Source: Planctomycetota bacterium
Lineage (GTDB): Bacteria; Planctomycetota; UBA11346
Length of the DNA: 64,000 nt
Assembly: GCA_014193115.1 (NCBI GenBank)
Contig: BJHQ01000012.1
Span: forward strand, 22,803 to 86,802
Direction of reading: 5' to 3'
The notes under the pieces are model-generated. The model was not told where the DNA came from. It saw only the letters and a list, made by a program, of their open reading frames with translations, and ran no database searches. Position 1 is the stretch's first letter. The number at the start of each line of letters is the position of its first letter. The position numbers and the translations under genes are program-made. Shown piece after piece: positions 3,340-35,457 of the stretch.

Positions 3340-3406
3340 CGGGTTTCCATTCCACCCGTGACCGGCCCGGGAGCAATGCCTCACCCAATGGACTTGGCAA
3401 TTCCCT

Positions 3407-3433
3407 GGGAGCGCCGAGCTCCAGCTCGGCCCA
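3407..3433. repeat. Dispersed palindromic repeat (GCGCCGAGC-CCAGCTCGGC type)
   Basis: Near-palindromic GCGCCGAGCTCCAGCTCGGC in non-coding sequence upstream of the metallopeptidase gene. The same element, one or two bases different, occurs three times inside the RND permease gene at 34.9-35.0 kb, so it is a dispersed genomic repeat. Confidence 0.75.
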
Positions 3434-30872: not shown

Positions 30873-32092
30873 GCGATAATGGTGAGCAGGAGGCGTCCCG
30901 CCCGGTGCCCGTCCTGTGGGCTTCGCCGCGCCTGTGGAGCGGGTTGGCCGTCGGACTCCTGATCGGGTTGGCGGTCGGCGCCGGTGGAGCGGGGGCGCTG
31001 CTCCGTCCCAAGTCCCCTGCGCCAGTCGATCCGTCGGTCCAAACCACCAAGAAAACCAAATTTCCCGTGGAGATCGGCGCGACCATCGCCGCCCCCGTGG
31101 AGCGCTCCTTGACCGCGACCGGCGCGATCGAGGCCTTCGAGACGGTGCGGGTGGCGGCCCGGGTCGCGGGCATCGTCGAGACCGTGCTGGTGGCCGAGGG
31201 CGACGCGGTGAGCGCCGGCCAGCCGTTGGTGGCCCTCGATGCTGCCCGGTTCCGTCTGGCCGTGGCCGGCGCCGAAGCGGCGCTGGCGGCGGCGCAGTCG
31301 CGGCTGAGCGAAGCCGACCAGCAATGGCGGCGCCGGTTGGCCGCGGAAAAAGCCCAGGTCGGAACGGTGCCGGCCGGCGAGCTGGATCAGTTGGCTGCCC
31401 GGGTCGATCAGGCCAGGGCCGACCTGGCGTCGAGCACCGTCAATCGCGACCGTGCGGCCCTCGACCTGAAGGAATCCATCATCACCGCGCCGTTTCCCGG
31501 CATCGTGCAAAGCCGCGACATCCAGACCGGCAGCGCTCTGCTGGTCGGCCAGGCGGTGGCGACGCTGATCCAGCGCGACCCGCTCCAGGTGCGGTTCGCC
31601 CTGCCGGTGGCGGATGCGGCGATCCTGCGCATCGGCCAGGCGATCGAGGTCGTCGTCGGCGGGGCTCAACCGGTGCCGGCCAGCGTCCGGTTGATCGCCG
31701 CCGCCGCCGACCGGGCCACCCGCCAGGTGACCGTGCTGGCCCGATTCGCGCCAGAGAACCACCCGGATGCCGGCCAAGCAGTGACGGCCCTGCGCCCGGG
31801 TTCCTTCGCCGCCATCCGCATCGTCCTGCCCGCCGGGCCGCCGGTCATCTCGATCCCCGACTTGGCGGTCCGCCCCAGCGAGCGCGGATTCCTGGTGTTT
31901 TCCATCGACGGTGACGGCGATAGCGCGGTCGCCCGGGAGCACCGGGTCGAGACCGGCGAGCGCACCACCGATGGCCGGGTGGTGATCCGCAGCGGATTGA
32001 CCCCTGGTCAGCGCATTGTCGTCCGCGGCGCCGAACCGCTGCGCGAGGGTTCGCCGGTCGAGATCCGGGACCAGCCGGCCCCCGCGCCGTGA
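30869..32092 (+). CDS. Efflux RND transporter periplasmic adaptor subunit
   Basis: 407 aa from MSDNGEQEASRPVPV with one N-terminal membrane anchor (SGLAVGLLIGLAVGAGGAGALL). HlyD/MFP features: GAIEAFETVRVAARVAGIVETVLVAEGDAVSAGQPLVALD (lipoyl-type half), a coiled-coil hairpin (about 150-220), TAPFPGIVQSRDIQTGSAL (second half), then beta-barrel and membrane-proximal domains ending GLTPGQRIVVRGAEPLREGSPVEI. It bridges the RND permease and TolC. Coupled to both neighbours by 4-bp overlaps (ATGA, GTGA). Confidence 0.95.
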   Translation: MSDNGEQEASRPVPVLWASPRLWSGLAVGLLIGLAVGAGGAGALLRPKSPAPVDPSVQTTKKTKFPVEIGATIAAPVERSLTATGAIEAFETVRVAARVAGIVETVLVAEGDAVSAGQPLVALDAARFRLAVAGAEAALAAAQSRLSEADQQWRRRLAAEKAQVGTVPAGELDQLAARVDQARADLASSTVNRDRAALDLKESIITAPFPGIVQSRDIQTGSALLVGQAVATLIQRDPLQVRFALPVADAAILRIGQAIEVVVGGAQPVPASVRLIAAAADRATRQVTVLARFAPENHPDAGQAVTALRPGSFAAIRIVLPAGPPVISIPDLAVRPSERGFLVFSIDGDGDSAVAREHRVETGERTTDGRVVIRSGLTPGQRIVVRGAEPLREGSPVEIRDQPAPAP

Positions 32093-35000
32093 ACCTCACC
32101 GCCGTCAGCATCCGCAAGCCGATCGCCGCCTGGATGGTGATGGCGATCACCGTGCTGCTGGGCTGCGTCTCCCTCGCCCGGATCGGCGTCGGATCGGTGC
32201 CCGATGTCGATCTGCCGCTGGTCAACATCAGCCTGGCATGGCCAGGCGCCGCAGCCGAAGTGGTCGAGCAGGATCTGGTCGAACCGGTCGAAGAGGCGCT
32301 CTCCGCGGTCGAAGGGATCAAGACGATCACCTCCCGGGCCCGGCTCGGTTCCGCCAACCTGACCCTCGAACTGCACCTCGGCCATGAGGTCGACGACGCC
32401 ATCCAGCAGGTCCAGACCCAGCTCGGCCTGGTCCGCAGCATCTTGCCCAAGGATGTTGAACCGGCGGTCATCACCAAGATCAACATCGACGAATTCCCTG
32501 TGGTGTGGATCAGCCTCTCGGGTCCGTACAGCCGGGCCAGGCTGGCCGACACGGTGCGTGATGTGGTCAAGGAACGCTTGCAGCGGGTGCCCGGAGTCGC
32601 CGACATCCAGTGGGGCGGCTATCTGGACCGCAATGTCCGGCTGTGGCTGGATCGCGACCGGCTCGACGAGCGAGGACTGACCGCCGCCGAGGTGGTGCGG
32701 CGGATCCAGGCCGAGCACGTCGAGCTGCCCGCCGGACTGATCGAAGGTCCGGCCAAGGAAATGGATGTGCGGGTGCTGGGCGAGGCTGGAAACCTGGACT
32801 CGATGCGCGCGTTGGCGGTGGGCGGCACCGCCGACCAGCCGGTACGCCTGGGCGACGTGGCGGTGGTCGAGAACGGCTTCGCCGACGAACGCACCCGGGC
32901 GAGGAACAGCGGCGATCCGGCCCAATCCCTCGGCGTGAAGAAGCAGCGCGGGTCGAACACCGTGCAGGTGGTGACGGCAGTCCGCAAAGCGCTCGGCGAA
33001 TTGCAGGCGGTCTTGCCCGAGGGCATGCGGCTGGAAGTCAATTACGACGACTCGATCTTCATCGCCGCGACTGTGCGCGATGTCGAGCACGAGCTGGCCT
33101 GGGCGGTGGCGCTGACCGCGATCGTGGTGTGGTTGTTCCTCGGATCGTGGCGGGCGATGCTCAACGTGCTGCTGGCGGTGCCGATGTCGCTGCTCGGCAC
33201 CATCGCCGCGATCTATGTCCTGGGCTACACCCTCAACACGTTCACCCTGCTCGCCCTGGCCCTGGTGGTCGGCCTGGTGGTCGATGACGCGATCATGGTC
33301 CAGGAGAACATCTCGCGGTACACCGAGGCCGGGATGAAGACCCGGCGCGCGGCGCTGAAAGGCACGTTGGAGGTGACCTTTGCCGCCGCCGCCAGCACCT
33401 TGGCGGTGGTCGCGGTGTTCCTGCCCCTCGGCTTGGTGCCGGGAACCCTCGGCCAATACCTGGTGCAGTTCGGCGTCACGCTGTCGATCGCGGTGATGCT
33501 CAGCTATCTGGAGGCCGTGACCTTGGCGCCGGCCCGCTGCGCCCAGTTCCTGACCGTCGGGCGGCAGGACCGCGGCCTGGTCGGGCGATCAGCCGACCAG
33601 GTCTTCAACCGCCTGCGCCAAGCCTATAGCGCGGTGCTGCCGTGGACCTTGCGCCGTCCCCTGCTCGCGCTGCTCGGCGCGCTGGTGCTGTTCATCGGCG
33701 GACTGGCCCTGGTGGCGTTCCTGCCCAAGGAATTGATGCCCAAGCAGGACCGCGGCGCGATGTTCGTGCGGGTCGAGACCCAGGCCGGCGCCGGCATCGA
33801 GGAGACCGACCGGGCCATGCGCCGGGTCGAAGGTTGGCTCGCCGGCCAGCCCGAGGTCGAACGGTATTTTGCGGTGATCGGCGGTTTCGGCGGCACCGGC
33901 GTCAATACCGGCGTGGTCTTCGTCACCCTCAGCCAGAAGCACCAGCGCAGCGCCAGCCAGACTGAGGTCGAGCAGCGGGCCCGGGCCGCCTTCGGCCAGT
34001 GGCCGGGCATCACCGCCACGATCCAGGATCTCGGCAACCCCGGCAGCCGTGGCGAGATCGATTTCAGCCTCCGCGGCAGCGACTGGCCGGGCCTGGCCAA
34101 GGCCAACGAGCAGGTCATGCAGCGGATGCGCGACAGCGGACGGTTCGTCGATATCGATACCGATTACCAGCTTGGACGGCCCCAGGTGGCGGTGCTGCCC
34201 GATCGCGACCGGGCGCGGGATCTCGGCGTGTCCACCGCCGATCTCGCCAACACCCTGAACATCCTGCTGGGCGGCGCGAAGGTCGGGAAGTTCAGCCTGG
34301 ACGGCCGCCGGGTCGATGTGCGAGCCCGACTGCTGGCCAGCGATCGGGTGCGCCCCGAGGACCTCGCCCGGGTCAAGGTGCGCACCGCCAGCGGCGACCT
34401 GGTTCCGCTGTCCCAGGTCGTCACCACCGAGGAACGCCCCGTGCTCGATGTCATCACCCGCAAGGACCGCAGCCGGGCCATCGGCATCACCGCCAACCTC
34501 GCCCCTGGCCAGACCCAGGAGACCGCCCAAGCCTGGCTTGATCGCGAGGTGCGCGGCTCGCTGCCCGAGGGCATCCGCCTGGTCAAGCAAGGTGCCGCTG
34601 AGACGTATCAGGAGATTTTCACCGGCCTGCTGCTGGCCTTCGTCGCCGGACTGGTGATCGCGTGGATGATCCTGGCTGCCCAGTTCAACTCGATGATCCA
34701 GGCGGTGACCGTGCTCTCGATCCTGCCGCTGGCGATCGCCGGCGCGGCGGGCGGACTGCTCGCCGCCGGGATGTCGCTGAACTTCCTGAGCGTTCTCGGC
34801 ATCTTGCTGCTGATGGGCATCGTGAAAAAGAACTCGATCATGCTGGTGGATTTCGCCAATGCGTTTGCACGGGGAAGGGTTCACGCCCCGGAAGCGCCGA
34901 GCGCCAGCTCGGCCCGGGAAGCGCCGACCGCCAGCTCGGCCCGCGGTCCTGAGGACGTGATCGCTGACGGCGATACGCAACCGCAAGCAAACCAAAACCC

Positions 35001-35457
35001 AATCCAGCCGAGCTGGCGCTCGGCGCTCCCAGCCCAGTCGAGCAAGCGCACGACGCCCCCGGCCGAGGCCATGCTCTCAGCCGGCCAGGTCCGCCTGCGG
35101 CCGATCCTGATGACCTCGGCTGCGACCATGGCGGCGGCGGTGCCGACCATGCTCGGTCTCGGTGCCGGGGCAGAACTTCGCCAGCCGATGGCCTTCGCCG
35201 TGTTCTGGGGCGTGCTGGTCGCCACTGCGCTCAGCCTGGTGGTGGTCCCGGCGTTCTATGTCGCGACCAGCCGCCACGCCTGGTTCCGCTGGGCGATGCT
35301 GTTCCTGGCTGCCCTGATCGGAATCGCTCCGCTGGCCGGATTGATTGCCGGGTCATTTCAGGCGCTTGGCATCGCCGTCGTGGTCATCACCGCGGTTTTC
35401 TGCCTGTGGGGGCTGGCGCAGCTGGTCCAATGGCTGAACCGGCTCAGCGACCGGTGA
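32089..35457 (+). CDS. RND efflux permease (HAE1 type) with repeat-derived insertion
   Basis: 1122 aa, GTG start overlapping the adaptor stop. Proton-driven inner-membrane pump: first helix IRKPIAAWMVMAITVLLGCVSLARI, porter domain, TM4 with VGLVVDDAIMVQENI (paired Asp of the proton relay, about 398), and a second half beginning with LRRPLLALLGALVLFIGG. Between VDFANAF (about 925) and LSAGQVRLRPILMTSAATMAAAVP (about 990), where relatives have about 20 residues, about 60 Ala/Ser/Pro residues are inserted. These are encoded by three copies of a dispersed palindromic repeat, in frame, at a cytoplasmic loop. Substrate unknown. Confidence 0.95.
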   Translation: MNLTAVSIRKPIAAWMVMAITVLLGCVSLARIGVGSVPDVDLPLVNISLAWPGAAAEVVEQDLVEPVEEALSAVEGIKTITSRARLGSANLTLELHLGHEVDDAIQQVQTQLGLVRSILPKDVEPAVITKINIDEFPVVWISLSGPYSRARLADTVRDVVKERLQRVPGVADIQWGGYLDRNVRLWLDRDRLDERGLTAAEVVRRIQAEHVELPAGLIEGPAKEMDVRVLGEAGNLDSMRALAVGGTADQPVRLGDVAVVENGFADERTRARNSGDPAQSLGVKKQRGSNTVQVVTAVRKALGELQAVLPEGMRLEVNYDDSIFIAATVRDVEHELAWAVALTAIVVWLFLGSWRAMLNVLLAVPMSLLGTIAAIYVLGYTLNTFTLLALALVVGLVVDDAIMVQENISRYTEAGMKTRRAALKGTLEVTFAAAASTLAVVAVFLPLGLVPGTLGQYLVQFGVTLSIAVMLSYLEAVTLAPARCAQFLTVGRQDRGLVGRSADQVFNRLRQAYSAVLPWTLRRPLLALLGALVLFIGGLALVAFLPKELMPKQDRGAMFVRVETQAGAGIEETDRAMRRVEGWLAGQPEVERYFAVIGGFGGTGVNTGVVFVTLSQKHQRSASQTEVEQRARAAFGQWPGITATIQDLGNPGSRGEIDFSLRGSDWPGLAKANEQVMQRMRDSGRFVDIDTDYQLGRPQVAVLPDRDRARDLGVSTADLANTLNILLGGAKVGKFSLDGRRVDVRARLLASDRVRPEDLARVKVRTASGDLVPLSQVVTTEERPVLDVITRKDRSRAIGITANLAPGQTQETAQAWLDREVRGSLPEGIRLVKQGAAETYQEIFTGLLLAFVAGLVIAWMILAAQFNSMIQAVTVLSILPLAIAGAAGGLLAAGMSLNFLSVLGILLLMGIVKKNSIMLVDFANAFARGRVHAPEAPSASSAREAPTASSARGPEDVIADGDTQPQANQNPIQPSWRSALPAQSSKRTTPPAEAMLSAGQVRLRPILMTSAATMAAAVPTMLGLGAGAELRQPMAFAVFWGVLVATALSLVVVPAFYVATSRHAWFRWAMLFLAALIGIAPLAGLIAGSFQALGIAVVVITAVFCLWGLAQLVQWLNRLSDR
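34890..35030. repeat. Palindromic repeat cluster inserted in the RND permease gene
   Basis: Copies at 34890-34916 and 34917-34943 (direct) and 35004-35030 (inverted), each containing GCGCCGAGCGCCAGCTCGGC or a one-base variant. A fourth copy is intergenic at 3407-3433. The in-frame product is an APSASSAREAPTASSAR-type segment. Confidence 0.85.

Follow-up and report, generated by a model that had tools for sequence, protein, structure and literature searches.

The window analyzed here, a 64-kb stretch of planctomycete DNA, carries an RND efflux pump gene that contains an in-frame block of short palindromic repeats, designated family A. The features concerned are as follows.

32089..35457, forward strand: RND (AcrB/AcrF-like) efflux pump gene, host of the insert, 1122 aa (ORF, Pfam ACR_tran 813 bits, PDB homologues)
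34887..35033, forward strand: REP element in frame, 147 nt = 49 codons, made up of a direct REP pair, a spacer, and an inverted REP
34887..34913, forward strand: REP copy 1, family A, CCCGGAAGCGCCGAGCGCCAGCTCGGC (repeat search, degenerate 22-mer match)
34914..34940, forward strand: REP copy 2, family A, differing from the degenerate 22-mer at 2 positions
34941..35006, no strand: 66-nt spacer inside the element, with no second match in 2.05 Mb of the genome and missing from the genes of relatives
35007..35033, reverse strand: REP copy 3, in inverted orientation, with an exact 23-mer core
35034..35060, forward strand: nine codons of extra loop, not REP derived, which complete the length difference to noncongeneric relatives (alignment)
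3404..3430, forward strand: solitary intergenic REP copy, family A (degenerate 22-mer match)

A sequence-only reading of the window had described a 27-nt repeat in the pump gene, present as two direct copies and an inverted one, with a further intergenic copy near 3407. All four were recovered, at 34887-34913, 34914-34940, and 35007-35033 and at 3404-3430. In a repeat search of the window, the copies in the pump gene were 93 to 96% matching as direct and inverted repeats, and the 64 kb held four matches to the degenerate 22-mer versus 0.01 expected from dinucleotide shuffles. The copy at 3404-3430 is intergenic or lies just upstream of a gene, with a likely Met downstream of the copy; ORF calling can stretch the start codon across it. 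As had also been claimed, the insertion keeps the frame of the pump, and the ORF at 32089-35457 stays open through the repeat block. An AlphaFold model of the pump built from 27 sequences was well folded (mean pLDDT, 84.5) except at residues 935-985, which scored less than 50. The insert loop is flanked by model helices 899-927 and 991-1022, in agreement with the proposed position between two helices; from AcrB homology and general RND topology, we take it to be the cytoplasmic TM10-TM11 loop.

Comparison with orthologues, which the earlier reading had suggested as a check for an empty site, revealed RND relatives without the repeat. By alignment, the interval from KKNSIMLVDFAN to RPILMT spans 97 aa in the pump versus 38 to 41 aa in more than 12 relatives. 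Orthologues from distant taxa sharing this loop, which the sequence-only reading had named as its refutation, did not turn up, and an ancient protein feature was rejected on the basis of the 38 to 41 aa found at this site in relatives. A single congener has 61 aa in the same interval, with an Ala/Pro-rich stretch and no repeat. A long loop thus probably existed in the genus before the element arrived, as judged from these sequences, and because the loop of the congener exceeds those of the other relatives by 22 aa, the exact ends of the element cannot be fixed in the RND gene. The previous figure of about 60 added residues holds against the noncongeneric relatives (about 58) but not for the repeat block alone (49 codons) or in view of the 61-aa loop of the congener.

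The family A unit of 27 nt is composed of CCTGGGAGC and a 7-bp stem (GCCGAGC/GCTCGGC) with a 4-nt loop (NCCA). A count across the 5.25-Mb genome, as the sequence-only reading had recommended, yielded 280 copies at up to 3 mismatches, and the reversed control yielded 0. Genomic context was read in detail over 2.05 of the 5.25 Mb, where 199 copies align to a sharp 27-nt unit, CCTGGGAGCGCCGAGCGCCAGCTCGGC. Most clusters there consist of single copies, of tandem runs, or of forward runs followed by reverse runs, and many read as an inverted doublet or as a tandem run closed by an inverted copy. The hairpin of the RND insert folds more strongly than shuffled sequence (z, -5.7). The repeat is GC rich and is without a stop codon in all six frames.

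Family A was depleted from genes: within the 2.05 Mb, 10 of 73 clusters lay deep in a gene versus 68% expected (p, 9e-22), as counted with a home-made approximate gene caller by which some of the 10 intragenic clusters are over-extended start codons. A hairpin of this length, within the 20 to 50 nt typical of REPs, in high copy and located mainly between genes, matches what is expected of a REP. Coding regions as the preferred home of the repeat are thus not supported, and because the depletion is so strong, the in-frame copies look like tolerated survivors. An apparent gene broken by the repeat at C1:638143 was rejected, since the flanking ORFs encode RbfA and glycerol-3-phosphate dehydrogenase and the copy is intergenic. 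Intragenic single copies at C3:108708 and C4:183506 have 3 mismatches, may be due to chance, and were excluded from the in-frame cases.

Inspection of other coding insertions, a further check proposed earlier, identified family A in frame in four additional genes.

C11:29910-34547: HrpA, 66 to 70 extra residues (G001, G005, and G011 without insert)
C3:180734-181855: cysteine-rich protein, about 80 extra residues (empty site in relatives)
C4:246611-247201: YbeY, about 42 extra residues (empty site in relatives)
DUF3686 ATPase: insert of about 67 aa (in-frame repeat)

In the RND pump, HrpA, YbeY, and the cysteine-rich protein, which are unrelated to one another, the in-frame repeat is missing from orthologues, and in this respect family A behaves like the palindromic elements (RPEs) of Rickettsia. 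In an AlphaFold model of YbeY, the insert was of low confidence and the remaining fold was confident. A ScpA-containing ORF carries six family A copies within a long repetitive linker. The repeat is read in several frames (GSAERQLG, APSASSA, AELALGAP, and PSWRSALP), which argues for selection for an open frame rather than for a peptide. The empty sites in relatives and the presence of the same repeat in frame in other genes bear out the idea that it can enter tolerant loops. Two more in-frame inserts that are missing from relatives were seen in HrpA (L181:9913-14547, reverse strand) at aa 240-268 and 632-675; the latter is similar to a different repeat that is scattered through that genome.

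The spacers of family A doublets in the host genome are mutually unrelated, with 7 of 406 pairs sharing matches of 12 to 18 nt. Doublets in G001 have a constant spacing of 101 to 102 nt and those in G019 (85 family A copies) a constant spacing of 79 to 80 nt, with similar spacers in each genome. Spacers that could be tested were mostly without another match in 2.05 Mb of the host genome, and copying of the spacer from elsewhere in the genome was rejected on this basis; a host-derived spacer was rejected because relatives at the empty-site genes also lack it. Within the 2.05 Mb, nearly identical REPs enclose spacers that are unlike one another and that do not derive from host sequence.

Five Y1 transposases were found in the host genome, each between its own palindromes, and all of these palindromes are repeated in the genome (B, GGAGAGGCGAGCCCCAGCTCGCC; C, GGAGCGCAGGCTTCAGCCTGC; D, GGAGCGCCGCACTCCGTGCGGC; and two further types). 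The NCBIfam name is REP-associated tyrosine transposase (RAYT) for three of the five, and the other two match the IS200 model. None of the five Y1 transposases of the host assembly (completeness, 94%) is flanked by family A, so that the family A RAYT has either been lost or lies in an assembly gap. Family A does adjoin a RAYT in three genomes of different phyla, namely, G003, of the same family as the host; G060, a MAG titled Kiritimatiellae; and G061, a MAG titled Chlorobiaceae. Two of these three RAYTs are named NF047646, and the single RAYT detected in G019 groups with that of G003 in a tree (support, 100/98). A GGGA(G/C) head is common to the REPs of many RAYTs of the same kind, with neighboring families reading GGGAGC, GGGAGA, or GGGACC, in contrast to the published GTAG and CGTC tags (PMC3733652, PMC6006769). 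The exact 23-nt repeat was also seen in MAGs labeled Planctomycetota, Anaerolineae, Kiritimatiellae, Sumerlaeia, Hydrogenedentota, and Chlorobiaceae (loci L044-L090), a distribution that suggests horizontal spread or misbinning.

Collectively, these data suggest that the RND insert is a nonautonomous mobile element of the REP/REPIN type, belonging to family A and inserted in frame, a reading to which we assign a probability of roughly 0.87. It draws on the observed dispersal, hairpin, doublets, gene depletion, empty sites, and in-frame state and on the REP-RAYT linkage in other genomes. Cleavage of REPs by RAYTs has been demonstrated experimentally in E. coli and others, in which folded single strands are bound and cut (PMC8266576). 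By this mechanism, RAYTs, which are HUH/Y1 single-strand transposases, would recognize folded single-strand REP hairpins and cut and rejoin them, spreading doublets through the genome. The doublet is taken as the putative inserted unit because the whole block, including the spacer, is missing from relatives at the empty-site genes. Insertions would probably be random as to frame, with in-frame loop insertions surviving and other coding insertions being lost by selection. Since the repeat is GC rich and stop free in six frames, its entry into a surface loop or a linker can give a translated and tolerated product, provided that the inserted length is divisible by three. In the RND pump, the element would have entered a loop close to the C terminus, flanked by two transmembrane helices, adding 49 codons predicted to be disordered. 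A RAYT presumably moved this copy, and the pump protein is likely made and working, with an insert that probably has no function of its own.

The REPIN assignment has to be weighed against the lack of a family A RAYT in the host assembly, the unrelated doublet spacers, and a tag of GGGAGC rather than GTAG/CGTC. The first two of these points would also fit a MITE-like derivative of a non-RAYT transposon with the REPs as its terminal repeats. However, the same repeat flanks RAYTs in G003, G060, and G061, the same GGGA(G/C) head recurs in the REPs of RAYTs from the host and its relatives, and a nonsystematic look turned up neither a target duplication nor another transposase; we regard such a derivation as very unlikely. 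Maintenance of the intragenic repeats for a protein or mRNA function, as a regulatory linker or a translation-tuning hairpin, might be argued from the strong folding of the RND insert, the number of different conserved genes that carry family A, and the closeness of their REPs to the consensus. The congener and other relatives nevertheless lack the repeat in the same genes; positions, frames, and encoded peptides vary from gene to gene; the peptide is predicted to be disordered; and intragenic copies are rare, all of which makes a retained function improbable, if slightly less so than a MITE-like origin.

An ordinary low-complexity, Ala/Pro-rich expansion of the RND loop, to which the likeness to a repeat would be secondary, could appeal to the congener, whose loop is also Ala/Pro rich and 22 aa longer than others without a REP. 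Such an expansion is contradicted by three copies matching a 280-copy repeat, versus 0.01 matches expected per window, and by the same repeat having clean empty sites in unrelated genes. The copy number and the other genes refute it, leaving it as a possible account of the nine flanking codons only, and it is the least credible of the explanations for the insert as a whole.

Insertion of REPs in frame is a known phenomenon, as described for GTAG/CGTC REPs, whose in-frame copies, dimers, and groups of up to 82 codons occur in genes that include those for RNA helicases and tRNA synthetases (Di Nocera et al. 2013, PMC3733652). Like family A, these REPs are short hairpins, often dimers, that are mostly intergenic and that lie in frame in conserved proteins, with inserted regions of 20 to 82 aa (PMC3733652). 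Family A differs in its tag (GGGAGC) and in its hosts, which include an RND pump and YbeY, and the GTAG/CGTC tetranucleotide is absent from the foot of its hairpin, which is CCTGGGAGC. REPINs and their RAYTs (Bertels and Rainey 2011, PMC3116915; Nunvar et al. 2010, PMC2817692) share with family A the dispersed inverted doublets forming one hairpin and, as far as G003, G060, and G061 are concerned, a link to RAYT genes that have the same REP on their flanks. In the host, by contrast, the spacers of family A are not conserved between copies, and no cognate RAYT was found in the assembly. The copies treated in the REPIN studies are extragenic (PMC3116915, PMC2817692), whereas family A is also intragenic.

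The likeness to Rickettsia elements drawn in the sequence-only reading is sound as an analogy but is not specific, because RPE-4 and RPE-6 are themselves classed among CGTC REPs (PMC3733652); REPs or REPINs tied to RAYT transposases fit better. RPE-1 is a longer palindromic insertion (PMC3733652). RPEs and family A are both palindromic repeats in frame in many protein genes, translation of family A being deduced from the open frame, but the two probably differ in sequence and tag, and most family A copies are intergenic. Relative to the cited REP literature, the GGGAGC tag and family, the host genes, the empty-site comparisons, and the presence of whole RAYTs in genes (described below) are apparently new. 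In-frame REP insertion is thereby extended to a large GGGAGC-tag family that is near identical in MAGs assigned to several phyla. In-frame hairpin repeats are a rarely documented route by which selfish DNA adds stretches to proteins, and RND, YbeY, and HrpA with and without inserts provide natural experiments on the limits to such invasion.

Whole RAYTs were also observed inside host genes, in MAGs and by a nonsystematic search.

L321:1228-4602, forward strand (G062, a MAG titled Candidatus Sumerlaeia): whole RAYT, aa about 310 to 565, in frame in the editing domain of LeuRS
L322:1190-2542, forward strand (G043): RAYT with inverted GGGAGCGCAGGCCTCCGGCCTGC repeats in frame in a FabA/FabZ-like dehydratase
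L325:359-4969, reverse strand (G054): RAYT in frame of an MmeI/Eco57I-type restriction-methylase gene
L316:3-2765, reverse strand (G003): RAYT in an MmeI-type frame that reaches the contig end

The LeuRS matches TIGR00396 in two pieces (848 bits), its RAYT is bounded by 20-bp perfect inverted repeats, and a second LeuRS was not found in the G062 genome. G043 has a second FabA-like gene besides the one carrying the RAYT. In the tree, the RAYTs of L321, L322, and L325 group together (98/95 and 94/76), and that of L316 falls in another clade. We tentatively suggest that a RAYT lineage might be an in-frame, protein-invading element that brings its own inverted repeats into conserved genes, with the family A inserts as a small nonautonomous version, although this remains doubtful. 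If true, host proteins (LeuRS, FabZ, and the MmeI-type methylase) would carry an embedded single-strand DNA transposase. The RAYTs within LeuRS and FabZ offer a way to test if a conserved protein can harbor a complete transposase, which would run against the view of PMC6006769 that a REP and its transposase are not mobilized together as one unit.

In that source, TnpA-REP subclass 2.4 is described as having REPs within the transposase gene, in frame between the HUH and Tyr motifs, with a GT(A/G)G foot unlike that of family A; the parts consulted make no mention of complete RAYTs lodged in unrelated host genes (PMC6006769). A similar arrangement was seen at L250:1198-1815 (forward strand) in G060, where a family A-like REP lies inside the open frame of a RAYT (NAELGLGVPGKAF). 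This internal REP may be a replacement rather than an insertion, as the length of the segment matches that in other RAYTs.
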